This document shows, piece after piece, positions 35,193-61,105 of a stretch of DNA of 64,000 bases. The notes beneath the pieces are model-generated. The model was not told where the DNA came from. It made no database searches and saw nothing but the letters and a program-made list of their open reading frames with translations. How positions within the stretch are numbered: the stretch's first letter is position 1; each line of letters starts with the position of its first letter. This DNA comes from Pseudonocardia sp. CNS-004 (lineage in GTDB: Bacteria; Actinomycetota; Actinomycetes; Mycobacteriales; Pseudonocardiaceae). The stretch covers positions 62,001 through 126,000 of the forward strand of contig MKJV01000011.1 in the NCBI GenBank assembly GCA_001942185.1, given 5' to 3'. The position numbers and the translations under genes were made by a program.

Positions 35193-36518
35193 TCACAGGT
35201 CGGCGAGCCTCCCGAGCGGCACCGAGACGTCGTGGGCGGCGGGGATCGCGGCGCTCAGCCGGGCGATCTCCGCCGCCGTGTCGGGGCCGAGGAGCGCCGC
35301 GAGCAGGTCCTGCAGGGCGGCGACGTCCATCGGGTGGTGGGCGCTGTCGCCCACCGGGTTCGGCACCTCGCGCGTGACCTCGCCGGACGGGCCGCGGACG
35401 GTCACGCGCGCGGCGCGCTCGTCGGGGAGCCGGGCGGTGAGGTCGGCCGCCTCGCGGACGACCACCCGGGCCGCGAGCGCCTCGACGCGGGGGTCGCGCA
35501 GGGCCTCGCCGCTGGACACGGCCGGGCGGAGGTGCCCGTGCACGAGTGCGGCCGCGACGACGAACGGGGTGGAGAACAGGGCACCCAGGCGCGAGTCCCA
35601 CGTGGTGCGGGTGAGGCCGGCCGCGAGCGCGTGCGTCTCGACGACGACCTCGTCGATCCCGTCCAGGGGGATCTCGGGGCGCAGCGCGAGCACGACGTCG
35701 GCGGCGGGATGGGTGAACGAGCAGGCCGCGTGCCGCTTGAAGTAGCCCAGCTCGACGTCCCAGCGCTCACCGAGCGCCTCCGTGATCGCGTCGGGGTCGA
35801 AGCCGCCGAGCAGCTCGCCCAGCGCGATCGCCGCGGTGCCGGTGTTGCGGGCGACGCCGGCCTGCGCCATCCGCGCGGCGGCGAGGCCGGAGAGGTTGGA
35901 GGCGGCCATCCAGGCGTCGCGGACGGGGTTGCCGTCCAGGGCGCTACCGAAGTGGCCGGCGACCGGCAGGCCGGCCCCGGTGTCGATCGCCGCCGCGACC
36001 CCGTCGCGTCGAGCCCGAGCAGCCGGGCGCACCCGGCCGCCGCCCCGGCCACGCCCCACGAGCCGTGCGGGTGGCGCCGGTCCGCAGGCTGGTGGCGCGC
36101 CCGAACCGGCTCGCCACCTCGTACGCCGCGAGGAGCGCGGCCATCGTGTCCGGGCCGGACGCGCGCTGCTCGGCGGCCAGCGCCAGCACGGCGGGGAACG
36201 CGTGTGCCGCGGGGTGGCCCTTCGCGTACTTGTTGCCCTCGTCCAGCTCCAGCCGCACGAGCGCGGCCGCGTTCAGCCACGCCGACGCTTCGACGGTGGT
36301 GGTGCGCCCGGCCCCCGCAGGGGAGCGGGACCCGGCGCCGGGCGCCACGCGTCCACCAGCAGCGCCTGCTCGGGTTCGCGCGCCCCGGCGAGCGCCACAC
36401 CCAGCGTGTCGAGCAGGACCAGCGCGAGCCGGTCGCGCACCCGCTGCGGGACGTCGTCCCAGCGCAGCGTGGACACCCACGCCCCGGCTTGCGCCGTCGC
36501 CTTCTGCGCTGCGTCCAT
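35193..36518 (-). CDS. MmgE/PrpD family protein A (three apparent frameshifts)
   Basis: About 440 residues assembled from four reading frames. The N-terminal VLLDTLGVALAGAREPEQAL continues with LVRLELDEGNKYAKGHPAAH, the helical SWGVAGAAAGCARLLGLDAT, then YFKRHAACSFTHPAADVVLA and VVVETHALAAGLTR. Single-base losses near 36310, 36080 and 36005 fit. This family contains 2-methylcitrate dehydratase, cis-aconitate decarboxylase and iminodisuccinate epimerase, all acting at CH next to carboxylates. ATG overlaps the livF stop (TGATG). Specificity unknown. Confidence 0.78.
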
Positions 36519-37218
36519 CAGATCCCCAGGTACGCCGCGCGCACGCGGTCGTCGCGGGCCAGCTCGCGCCCGTGCCGTTGAGCACGATACTGCCGCTCTC
36601 CAGCACGTACGCGCGGTCGGCGAGGTCGAGGGCGTGCTTGGCGTTCTGCTCCACGAGCAGCACGGCGACGCCCCGCTCGCGGATCAGCTGCACCGCGTCG
36701 AGGACGGCCCAGGTGAGCTTCGGCGAGAGCCCGGTGGACGGCTCGTCGAGCATCAGCAGCTTCGGGCGGGCCATCAGCGCCCGGCCGATCGCGAGCATCT
36801 GCTGCTGGCCGCCCGACAGCGTCTCGGCGGCCTGGCCGCGGCGCTCGTCGAGGATCGGGAACAGAGCGAACACCTCGGCGAGGTCGTCGTCGAGCGAGTG
36901 CCCGCCCTGCGTCCAGCCGCCCATGCGCAGGTTCTCCAGCACGGTGAGCGGGCCGAAGAGTGCCCGGCCCTCCGGCACGTGCACGAGCCCGCGCCGGACC
37001 AGCTCACTCGGCCGCAGCCCGACCGCCGGCTCACCGCGGAACGTGACGGTGCCGCTGGTCGGCGTCAGCATCCCGGAGATCGTCTTGAGGGTCGTGGTCT
37101 TGCCCGCCCCGTTACCGCCGACGACGGCGACGATCTCGCCCTCACCGACCGTCAGGCCGATCTCGTGCAGGATCTGCAGGTGGTGGTAGCCGGCCGACAG
37201 GCCCTCAACGCTCAGCAT
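36518..37218 (-). CDS. livF: Branched-chain-type ABC importer ATPase LivF (one apparent frameshift)
   Basis: The P-loop GGNGAGKTTT lies near residues 33-42, the signature is ETLSGGQQQMLAIGRAL and the Walker B is LLMLDEPSTGLSP. It is a LivF-type ATPase with about 234 residues. One base missing near 36570 restores the ending ELARDDRVRAAYLGI. It energises uptake with LivG through LivH/LivM. It overlaps livG by 14 bases. Confidence 0.88.
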
Positions 37219-37936
37219 TCGGCTCCTCCCCGAGGTAGGCCTCGATGACCCGCGGGTCGCGCGTGACCTCCTCGGGCGAGCCGTGCGTCAGCACCCGCCC
37301 GAGGTCGAGCACGAGCACGGAGTCCGACAGCCGCATGACCGCGGCCATGATGTGCTCGACGAACACGAGCGTGACGCCCTCCTGGCTGCGCAGCTCGTCG
37401 AGCAGGTCCATCACCGGCTCGCGCTCGGCGGGCACGAGCCCGGCCAGCACCTCGTCGAGCAGCAGCACGCGGGGGCGGCTCGCGAGGGCCCTGGCCAGCT
37501 CGAGGCGCTTGAGCGCCGCGGTGGGCAGGCCCTCGCTCGGCGAGTCGCGCCACCTGCCGAGGCCGACGCGTTCGATCACCTCGGCCGCCGTGGTGCGTGC
37601 CGTGCGCCGGGACCCACCGCCCGCCAGCACCGCGATCGTGACGTTCTCCAGCACGCTCATCGAGTAGAACGGCCGCATCAGCTGGAACGTGCGGGCCATC
37701 CCGGCGGCGAGCACGCGGTGCGGCGGTCGTCCGGTGATGTCGGCGCCGTCGAGGTGCACCGTGCCGGCGTCCGGCGCGAGCGTGCCGGCCACCAGGTTGA
37801 ACGTGGTGGTCTTGCCGGCGCCGTTGGGGCCGATGATGCCCAGGATGGCGCCCTCGGCGACCTCGAAGCCGACGTCGTCGACGGCGCGCAGGCCCTTGAA
37901 GGACTTGGTGAGCCCTTCCACTCGGAGCAAGGTCAT
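37205..37936 (-). CDS. livG: Branched-chain-type ABC importer ATPase LivG
   Basis: Intact, 243 residues. The P-loop is GPNGAGKTTT, MARTFQLMRPFYSMSVLENV is typical of LivG, and the Walker B is VLLLDEVLAGL. The ABC signature is unusual: LPTAALKRLELARAL replaces LSGGQ, which I believe is found in a LivG subgroup in actinomycetes, so activity is not excluded. ATG 37936 overlaps the livM stop. Confidence 0.87.
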   Translation of the reverse strand: MTLLRVEGLTKSFKGLRAVDDVGFEVAEGAILGIIGPNGAGKTTTFNLVAGTLAPDAGTVHLDGADITGRPPHRVLAAGMARTFQLMRPFYSMSVLENVTIAVLAGGGSRRTARTTAAEVIERVGLGRWRDSPSEGLPTAALKRLELARALASRPRVLLLDEVLAGLVPAEREPVMDLLDELRSQEGVTLVFVEHIMAAVMRLSDSVLVLDLGRVLTHGSPEEVTRDPRVIEAYLGEEPNAER

Positions 37937-59739: not shown

Positions 59740-59741
59740 AG

Positions 59742-59801
59742 TGGAAACCTCTTTCCAGAGTGGAAGGGGGAGAGATTGCTCCCTGTTCGGGGCGCTGTCA
59801 A
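59742..59801 (-). promoter_or_regulatory. Promoter and TGGAAA palindrome of the DHODH-like operon
   Basis: On the minus strand TTGACA (59801-59796) and CAATCT (59778-59773) are 17 bases apart. The palindrome TGGAAA-N4-TTTCCA (59742-59757) lies just upstream of ATG 59739 and includes the probable ribosome site AAAGAGG. The -35 lies inside the end of the upstream MmgE/PrpD gene. The same arrangement occurs at 63540-63602. The core resembles the IclR box TGGAAAT-N-ATTTCCA as I remember it, with one extra spacer base. Confidence 0.6.
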
Positions 59802-61105
59802 GCTCCCCGGAGCGGTGCGAGCAGCTGTGCGACGTCGGTCTCCCGGTCCAGCTCGACGAGCCGGTCCCACAGCTGGGGGCCTGGCTCGCCCGCGAGGGCG
59901 AGGAACTTCTCCCGCAGCTCGTCGGCGGTCAGCGGGTCGTGGTGGTAGCCGTGCGGGTCGGTCACCGACGCCTCCAGGCGCTGCCCGGCGTGCACCACGA
60001 CCTGGGTGGGCGAGTGGTGCGGCCACTGCGCCTCGAGCGCGGGGTCCACCGTGACGCTGACCCGCCGGGCGAGCTCGGCGACCGGCGGCCGGTAGTCGAA
60101 CGTGCTCACCTGCGAGGCCCGTGCCAGAAGCGTGGCCGCCACGGCGTAGGGCAGCGAGAAGCGGCTCGACAGGTCGTTGGGCGCGGCCTGCCGGTCCAGC
60201 TTCAGGTTGTTCGCCACCGTGCGCACCTCCACCGCGGAGATCTCGTCCACGGGTACCGGGGGTAGCGACAGCACCGCGTCGACCGCGCCGTGGGTGAGCG
60301 CGCAGGCGCTGTGCCGCTTGAAGTAGTTGCGCAGGACGGCGGGGTTCGCCGGGTCGAGCTCGGCGGTCAGCGCGTCCGCCGCCACGACCTGGCCGGTCAC
60401 CTGCCCGAACAGCGCGCCGACCGACTCCGGGGACCCGCGGAAGCCGGCCCGGTGCAGCCGCACGGCGCGCAGCGCGTTCTGCGCGGCGAGCCCCATCGCG
60501 GTGTTGCGGGCGGTGGCCCCCTCGTAGCAGGCGTTCCAGACCGGGACCGTCGGCGTGGTCGCGGCGATCGCCGCCACCGCGTGCGGATCCTCGTCGAGCA
60601 GCAGGGCCACCGCCACCGCGGCGCCCACCCCCGCGAGATGGCCGTGCGGGTGCGTCGGTGGCGTGAGCCGGAACGCGGTGAGCAGCCGCGCGGCCACCTC
60701 GTACCCGGCGACGACGGAGGTGAGCAGTTCGGCGCCCGAGCGGTGCGCGACCTCCGCGGCCGCCAGCGCCGCCGGCACGATGTGCATGCCGGGGTGGCCG
60801 GTCGGGCGCATCCCCTCGTCGAGCTCGAGGAACGACCCGGCGGTGGCGTTGAGGAACGCCGCCTCCTCCGCGGTCGAGCGCCCCGCGCCGGCTGCGAGAA
60901 CGGTCGCCTCCCCGTCGGGGAGCCGGGTCGCACGCAGGTGGGTCATCTCCGGGGTGCGTCCGCCGCCCAGGCTCACGCCGACCGTGTCCGCGACGACGTG
61001 CAGGGCGTGCCGGCGCACCGGTTCCGCGAGCGGCCCGGGGTGCAGCCGGACCGCCTGGGTGATCGCTGCGGACACGCCGCGGGCGAGGCTCGCGGCGTCG
61101 GTCAC
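59798..61105 (-). CDS. MmgE/PrpD family protein F
   Basis: Intact, 435 residues, the only unbroken paralogue. HALHVVADTVGVSLGGGRTP opens it, SFLELDEGMRPTGHPGMHIV is the active-site segment and YFKRHSACALTHGAVDAVLS the partner helix (close to protein A). The LELDEG/HPGMH and KRHSACALTH patterns match A rather than B-E. GTG overlaps the amidohydrolase stop. Possible dehydratase, isomerase or decarboxylase of a carboxylated intermediate. Confidence 0.85.
   Translation of the reverse strand: MTDAASLARGVSAAITQAVRLHPGPLAEPVRRHALHVVADTVGVSLGGGRTPEMTHLRATRLPDGEATVLAAGAGRSTAEEAAFLNATAGSFLELDEGMRPTGHPGMHIVPAALAAAEVAHRSGAELLTSVVAGYEVAARLLTAFRLTPPTHPHGHLAGVGAAVAVALLLDEDPHAVAAIAATTPTVPVWNACYEGATARNTAMGLAAQNALRAVRLHRAGFRGSPESVGALFGQVTGQVVAADALTAELDPANPAVLRNYFKRHSACALTHGAVDAVLSLPPVPVDEISAVEVRTVANNLKLDRQAAPNDLSSRFSLPYAVAATLLARASQVSTFDYRPPVAELARRVSVTVDPALEAQWPHHSPTQVVVHAGQRLEASVTDPHGYHHDPLTADELREKFLALAGEPGPQLWDRLVELDRETDVAQLLAPLRGA

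Follow-up and report, generated by a model that had tools for sequence, protein, structure and literature searches.

Six divergent MmgE/PrpD genes in Pseudonocardia sp. CNS-004 and a conserved gene cluster that probably degrades a nitrogen-containing ring compound

Why does the genome of a soil actinobacterium hold six MmgE/PrpD genes within 26 kb, and do they serve one route? The window analyzed here is a stretch of 64,000 nucleotides from Pseudonocardia sp. CNS-004 (assembly GCA_001942185.1, contig MKJV01000011.1, positions 62,001–126,000), part of a 9.2-Mb genome in 156 contigs with a listed completeness of 83%. The original prediction, made from the letters alone, was that the six genes (here A–F, in order of position; Table 1) are subfunctionalized enzymes acting on successive carboxylated intermediates or on stereoisomers, rather than redundant copies. 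We find that the six proteins fall in old, separate clades, and that at least A and B probably take part in a widely conserved, apparently undescribed pathway that would open a nitrogen-containing ring and degrade the resulting two-acid molecule. Judged from its gene content, the window is an enlarged conserved catabolic cluster with a second operon and optional additions, not one six-enzyme route.

Six MmgE/PrpD paralogues and a half-sized relative

The Pfam families PF03972 and PF19305 each match six sites in the window, all above 32.1 bits, and both sets coincide with genes A–F, in agreement with the predicted count; the N-domain match of A comes in two pieces (45.3 and 33.2 bits). B, C and D directly adjoin one another, also as predicted, and the reading frames of B and C share four bases. 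A clade A protein has the two-domain fold of solved MmgE/PrpD members. Six such genes in 26 kb is unusual for Pseudonocardia: among the matches listed, other genomes of the genus have, as judged by eye, no more than two per 26 kb. PF03972 is matched in 45 of 62 Pseudonocardia genomes, counting the source genome, which has 15 matched pieces (10 in the runner-up). Its total is about 11–12 PrpD loci, those outside the window being spread over five further contigs. In the phylum as a whole, PF03972 is matched at E ≤ 1e-10 in 112 of 396 genomes, with at most six candidates scored per genome.

Pairwise identity among A–F is 26–36%. In a tree of 61 rows (A, 13; B, 14; D, 9; E, 5; F, 4; C, 2), each of the six forms one side of a branch in 200 of 200 bootstrap trees and has relatives in other genera or families. 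Recent duplication is rejected by these identities and by the six separate clades; we looked in the tree for very recent, near-identical duplicates and found none, so the copies are not redundant. A, C, D, E and F, together with proteins from Halomarina, Natrinema and Roseomonas, form a 37-row group (support 100/98) that excludes Escherichia coli PrpD, cis-aconitate decarboxylase (CAD), iminodisuccinate epimerase, Bacillus subtilis IRG1, MmgE of methylsuccinate-type operons, and B. The single CAD sequence falls outside all six clades, and B sits at an open fork, not firmly grouped with the MmgE proteins of methylsuccinate-type operons. Two pairs of rows join through long branches, and long reference branches leave the deeper order unsure. 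A length or label filter dropped L055_A, L101_A, L115_A and L116_B; the truncated L042_E and L130_F and a fragment on contig C91 were left out. Among the loci examined, reached by genome searches that queried A, D and F and not C, the nearest relative of C lies in locus L070 (47%). Window A and B group with Blastococcus and Asanoa and not with P. parietis, which suggests that the source genome acquired the cluster separately from this congener.

His102, His152 and Lys266 are retained in all six proteins, and loss of catalytic residues in most copies was therefore not seen. The three carboxylate-binding positions, 88, 91 and 202, differ by clade. Relative to the methylsuccinate isomerase set (His88, Glu91, His102, His152, Lys202 and Lys266), A, C and F have four of six, with Glu at position 91, no His88 and Arg at 202; B has five of six, with Asp at 91, as do two proteins from methylsuccinate-type operons. 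Departures of A, C, D, E and F from known MmgE/PrpD enzymes comprise Arg or Gly at Lys202, the lack of His88, and HPHG, HPFG or HDIG after His152. The original prediction gave the D segment correctly as DQLQDG, and shifted those of B and E by one residue; aligned to the LELDEG of A, C and F, these read LDFDDT and LDADSG. The partner helix of E, which it lacked, reads KPYACARWIH across both frames. The 2-methylcitrate dehydratase family NF042438 has a cut-off of 950 bits, and orthologues of A and B score 22.7 and 64.5. Old clades, retained core residues and differing binding positions bear out part of the original prediction.

Several of these genes are split over reading frames (A, B, C and E, and their neighbors FAD2, LivM, PPOX and LLM), with eight frame changes in 20 orthologue-matched window genes, C not being counted among these. 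B switches frame near 44672 and E near 51447, each occupying two frames; a single frame spans both domains of D and continues to 48879. Sequencing indels are the likely cause, because split PF03972 or PF19305 matches are also found on other contigs of this genome. If the frameshifts were real, the copies would be decaying pseudogenes in an unexpressed cluster. We consider this highly improbable: besides the genome-wide pattern of indel errors, catalytic residues are retained inside the split frames, F lies in one frame, and D and nine cluster neighbors (HYD, CaiB, RACE, LivF, LivG, LivH, the binding protein, IclR and CYC) are unbroken over their matched parts. Frame breaks are also numerous on contigs C63, C66 and C110, as in the window, and are probably assembly errors.

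The weakly similar helical protein predicted at 48876, here G, is distantly related to the N-domain of PrpD. In hhalign, five G orthologues match the PrpD profile over 185 N-domain columns (probability 94.6, E 7e-8); against clade A alone the probability is 74.3, and the unrelated control profiles LivH and LLM give 0.1 and 0.3. A Pfam scan of G found no match for member 1 and one family match, at E 0.096, among the five members. An AlphaFold model from five sequences (pLDDT 40.7) was too poor and was not used. G has no lid domain and a gap at the DFDD/GHP active-site segment; lacking that segment, it is probably an inactive, half-sized PrpD relative.

A conserved core cluster around A and B

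A and B belong to a cluster with a minus-strand set of CaiB, HYD, FAD2, RACE, A, LivFGMH and a binding protein, and a plus-strand series in the order IclR, CitE, CYC, B, C, D, PPOX, EthD, G, LLM and E (labels as in Table 1). Genome searches queried D, A and F. The locus sample consists of the best 80 of 188 relatives, picked by clade A, of which 61 are ‘full’ (at least 21 kb); presence of core genes was called by tblastn at ≥35% identity. Nine core genes (A, B, HYD, CYC, RACE, FAD2, CaiB, CitE and IclR) are all present in 53 of the 61 full actinobacterial loci, a count in which the choice of loci by clade A overstates the co-occurrence of A and B. The sampled genera include Micromonospora, Asanoa, Blastococcus, Actinomadura, Amycolatopsis, Nocardia, Streptomyces, Saccharopolyspora, Prauserella and Pseudonocardia. 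Liv genes accompany 38 of the full loci, and one MFS transporter family is found in 26 of the 80. CYC adjoins B in all 70 loci that have both. A adjoins RACE, a racemase-family gene, in 74 of 77, which would fit the predicted action on stereoisomers. Against this idea stands the absence from all six proteins of the second base of iminodisuccinate epimerase, Tyr145 (L, F, L, T, L and L in A–F); this is not decisive, because two MmgE proteins from methylsuccinate-type operons have His at that position.

The other paralogues are sporadic. Within 10-kb flanks of the 80 loci, so that further copies may sit farther out, D occurs in seven, E in four, G in three, and LLM, PPOX and EthD in four each; D and E occur jointly in L066 and L075 alone, besides the window and G096. 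In this last genome, from another family of the same order, the orthologous cluster is compact and includes A, B, D, E and G; over the 60 kb covered, the only matches to C and F are its four PrpD genes, at 27–42%. By gene content, A and B thus belong to a conserved core cluster to which D, E and G are optional. The predicted succession of all six on intermediates of one route is not supported, and a six-step route was rejected as unlikely: only A and B regularly travel together, and F and its homologues lie in a different operon.

A second sample came from CYC matches. CYC matches at E ≤ 1e-60 come from 17 of 61 genomes in Pseudonocardia and from 19 of 296 across the phylum, the source genome being in both counts. 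Twenty extra loci yielded CYC with B in 16, adjacent in 15 by score and in L159 also by tblastn (gap of 105 bases); in L156 neither was called. HYD was called in 13 of the 20. Where it is missing, other, unrelated ring-opening families appear in some loci: L153 has HyuAB-like genes, and L149 has two PuuE-like proteins and an isochorismatase-family protein. The hydrolases that replace HYD show similarity to RutB and biuret amidohydrolase at scores below cut-off. In L154, where HYD was not found, no substitute hydrolase was recognizable.

More distant clusters share parts of this set. A Roseomonas cluster contains an A-like PrpD, FAD2 (47%), HyuAB, a cysteine hydrolase, LeuCD and a methylisocitrate-lyase-like protein. 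A plasmid of Halomarina sp. BND7 (L142) carries, within about 36 kb, two PrpDs, FAD2 (41%), HYD-like (29–32%), CaiB (34–51%) and CitE (37%) proteins, isochorismatase-family hydrolases, LeuCD and a methylisocitrate-lyase-like protein. Positions 1–36000 of this plasmid also hold AtuA/DUF4387, acyl-CoA dehydrogenase and HMG-CoA-lyase-annotated genes. The thread common to the clusters is a predicted sequence of cyclic amide opening, hydrolysis of a second C–N bond, flavoprotein and PrpD action on a 1,4-dicarboxylate, and C–C cleavage. In Rhodococcus gordoniae pDND3A (L134, 5718–26870), core genes without A or a racemase directly adjoin HyuAB and an operon of MaoC, CoA-transferase, MmgE, acyl-CoA dehydrogenase and CitE. 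Our searches of open-licence literature turned up no description of this gene cluster, no catabolic cluster under hematinic acid or imidase, and no paper naming Rhodococcus gordoniae together with DND3.

Paralogue F and the second operon

F lies in a neighboring operon with PyrK-like, M20 carbamoylase, PRT-like, MFS, dihydroorotate dehydrogenase and dihydroorotase/allantoinase-like genes. The carbamoylase exceeds a subfamily cut-off, and the dihydroorotate dehydrogenase (58804–59739, minus strand) scores 320.4 bits against NF005574 (cut-off 269). The PRT-like gene has no family match of its own and is named from its position and its counterpart in locus L127, where a phosphoribosyltransferase-domain protein, a deaminase-like amidohydrolase and a DUF1028 protein lie near the F homologue. 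F itself matches no NCBIfam family. Its homologues (46–50%) occur in four genomes of one genus, matches being found in 5 of 296 genomes of the class, the source included; in all four they adjoin homologues of the dihydroorotase-like (61–62%) and carbamoylase (57–59%) proteins. Membership of F in the core cluster was rejected, the loci L127–L130 holding no core gene, just ABC ATPases (26–30%) and an 86-residue match to HYD. We infer the substrate of F, which is most likely an N-carbamoyl or amino dicarboxylate.

The dihydroorotate dehydrogenase gene is one of two PF01180 loci in the genome and may be catabolic or biosynthetic. Next to the F operon lies an ornithine cyclodeaminase/mu-crystallin-family gene (62517–63526, minus strand), whose weaker NCBIfam matches include the iminosuccinate reductase BhcD. 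A GH106 alpha-L-rhamnosidase-like gene (PF17132; 52232–54818, minus strand), split over frames, separates the two catabolic operons, and just beyond the core cluster is a KatG-like catalase-peroxidase gene in two frames (28174–30458, minus strand).

Table 1. Features of the window discussed in the text. HSPs, high-scoring segment pairs.
Feature	Position	Strand	Basis and remarks
CaiB-type class III CoA-transferase (CaiB)	30500..31690	-	PF02515; 63% to G096 orthologue
Hydantoinase/allantoinase-like amidohydrolase (HYD)	31687..33165	-	PF01979; 76% to G096
Fumarate-reductase/urocanate-reductase-type flavoprotein (FAD2)	33162..34537	-	PF00890; nearest PDB entry of orthologue; two frames
Asp/Glu/hydantoin racemase-family protein (RACE)	34534..35196	-	PF01177; nearest PDB entry hydantoin racemase, E 3.8e-5
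PrpD A	35193..36530	-	LELDEG type, core-cluster paralogue; PF03972/PF19305; orthologue HSPs 36515-35325; tree clade A
LivFGMH ABC transporter genes and substrate-binding protein	36535..41233	-	Orthologue matches 53–69%
IclR-type regulator	41436..42233	+	68% to G096 orthologue
CitE-type CoA-ester C–C lyase (CitE)	42234..43070	+	PF03328; orthologue nearest NCBIfam RipC/Ccl, below cut-off
PF04199 cyclase family, isatin-hydrolase-like (CYC)	43043..43882	+	PF04199 7.5e-26; isatin hydrolases among orthologue PDB matches
PrpD B	43879..45292	+	LDFDDT type, core-cluster paralogue beside cyclase; PF03972 9.5e-57; orthologue HSPs
PrpD C	45289..46627	+	LELDEG, HPFG; PF03972/PF19305; HSPs to L070 homologue
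PrpD D	46624..47907	+	DQLQDG, HDIG; both Pfam domains; 62% to G096 orthologue; tree
PPOX-class flavin/F420 protein (split) and EthD-domain protein	47990..48879	+	Orthologue HSPs; PF01243, PF07110 on G096 orthologues
PrpD N-domain-like helical protein (G)	~48876..49711	+	hhalign against PrpD profile; 34% to G096 G
LLM-type flavin-dependent oxidoreductase	49717..50645	+	PF00296; HSPs; two frames
PrpD E	50642..52016	+	LDADSG; PF03972/PF19305; orthologue HSPs
Operon around F	54903..62474	-	Pfam/NCBIfam matches
PrpD F	59798..61111	-	LELDEG; both Pfam domains, one frame; in neighboring ureide-type operon

A proposed pathway and its alternatives

We regard as evenly balanced the proposal that the core makes a substituted 1,4-dicarboxylate by hydrolyzing a cyclic imide or ureide, and that this product would pass through PrpD enolate chemistry, CoA activation and C–C cleavage. 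We infer the substrate, direction and order of every step; gene content, conservation, clades, catalytic residues and the clade A fold are observed. The substrate would enter through the Liv ABC transporter (MFS in other loci), HYD would open the ring, and CYC would hydrolyze the second C–N bond to give a dicarboxylate of the succinate or maleate type. FAD2 may then introduce or remove a double bond between the acid groups. Water would be added or removed via an enolate by PrpD B (the fixed neighbor of CYC), as in 2-methylcitrate dehydratase, and PrpD A, the usual neighbor of the Asp/Glu racemase, may rearrange the other isomer. CaiB would form a CoA ester and CitE would cleave it to a pyruvate-like 2-oxo acid and an acyl-CoA. 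C, D and E, like the pseudo-PrpD G, may be additions for related side chains or isomers, partly tied to the flavin/F420 oxidoreductase module. In its dihydroorotase/carbamoylase operon, F may carry out an enolate step of this kind with an N-carbamoyl-aspartate-like acid as substrate.

The nearest NCBIfam and PDB entries of a HYD orthologue are allantoinase and D-hydantoinase, and H64, H66, K156, H216, H273 and D346, which we take to be the binuclear metal ligands (HxH, carboxylated Lys, His, His and Asp), are kept in ≥97% of 70 rows, the reference included. Among the matches listed (25 of 51 families), HYD falls below every hydantoinase, allantoinase and dihydroorotase cut-off in NCBIfam, the best score being 227.9 of 631 bits. 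RACE conserves two cysteines, C77 and C180. The core could also degrade a cyclic ureide, a carboxylated hydantoin or dihydropyrimidine, with racemase and HYD acting as in hydantoin utilization, CYC or a carbamoylase removing the carbamoyl group, and the PrpDs epimerizing an aspartate-like acid or eliminating ammonia or urea from it. The kinship of HYD with allantoinase and D-hydantoinase and of RACE with hydantoin racemase, the RutB- and biuret-hydrolase-like replacements, and the dihydroorotase-like and carbamoylase genes beside F all favor this; so does iminodisuccinate, the substrate name in one known family activity, being an N-substituted aspartate. The nine core genes include no carbamoylase, aminotransferase or ammonia lyase, however, and the substrate that CaiB and CitE act on would have to be a hydroxy-acid, not an amino acid. 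We hold this ureide route to be a serious possibility, if an unlikely one. An imide or close relative is slightly ahead of a ureide as the ring, because the core has no nitrogen-handling enzyme beyond its hydrolases and because of the presumed hydroxy-acid need of CaiB and CitE.

A different possibility is a variant methylsuccinate or itaconate route in which A, C and F would act as stereoisomerases in the manner of methylsuccinate isomerase, and B would be an isomerase of the methylsuccinate type. Glu at position 91 in A, C and F, and the five of six carboxylate-binding residues of B with Asp at 91, are consistent with it. B-type proteins are 37–40% identical to MmgE of methylsuccinate-type operons, core genes adjoin such operons in L134 and L155, and CaiB and CitE have mesaconate CoA-transferase and citramalyl-CoA lyase, respectively, as matches below cut-off. 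Against it, neither a MaoC-type hydratase nor an acyl-CoA dehydrogenase is matched in the window at E ≤ 1e-8 to Rhodococcus proteins, a result by which a simple itaconate/methylsuccinate operon was rejected; B does not group firmly with the operon MmgE proteins, and HYD and CYC would be left without a role. We judge the variant route improbable.

Several observations, with the bias in locus choice given above, weigh against the proposed ring-opening pathway. Eight of the 61 full loci miss one to three core genes: CaiB, CYC and B in L066 and L075, RACE in L089, FAD2 in L092, HYD and CaiB in L116, L120 and L121, and RACE and FAD2 in L119. Among the extra loci, L148, L150 and L151 have CYC without B, and 20 kb of L154 holds CaiB, CYC, B and IclR only; B-type PrpD with CYC is also found without A. 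Because some loci miss core genes, no single linear route fits all of them. Orthologues of A, B, HYD, FAD2, CaiB, CitE and CYC all score below the cut-offs of their nearest curated families, and the substrates and activities of all members are predictions. D has neither an acid at position 91 nor Lys or Arg at 202, and if A were an epimerase, a residue other than the epimerase Tyr would have to serve as base. The hydantoin-racemase-like gene and the RutB/biuret-hydrolase-like hydrolases suit a ureide equally well.

Known systems resemble the core in part. The available text of one study (PMC12290011) describes a pseudomonad itaconate/methylsuccinate cluster with a PrpD, a CaiB-type CoA-transferase and a CitE-type lyase; the window adds amide hydrolases, a racemase and a free-acid-type flavoprotein. 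In fungal nicotinate catabolism (PMC9304392), a cyclic imide is likewise opened and the amide then hydrolyzed to a dicarboxylate; the enzymes are HxnM and HxnN, and the available text mentions no PrpD, CaiB or CitE. Hydantoin, allantoin and dihydroorotate utilization share the amidohydrolase and a hydantoin-racemase-like protein, and the F operon adds a carbamoylase and dihydroorotate dehydrogenase. To our knowledge, CoA activation, a C–C lyase and PrpDs are not part of these routes. A more specific form of the proposed pathway would convert substituted cyclic imides, such as maleimides from tetrapyrrole breakdown, to pyruvate and acyl-CoA, with two old-clade PrpDs as substituted-maleate hydratase and isomerase, a new reaction type with Arg for Lys202 in the LELDEG superclade, and G as a dead partner subunit of D or E. 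All of this together is doubtful.

The available text of a survey counts 50,344 MmgE/PrpD matches in GTDB and names four characterized activities (PMC12290011). With a conserved cluster in which two PrpD clades have constant neighbors, and other ring-opening families stand in where the amidohydrolase is missing, substrates become directly testable for a large part of this family that is still unassigned. The cluster would define a soil pathway for a nitrogen-containing ring.

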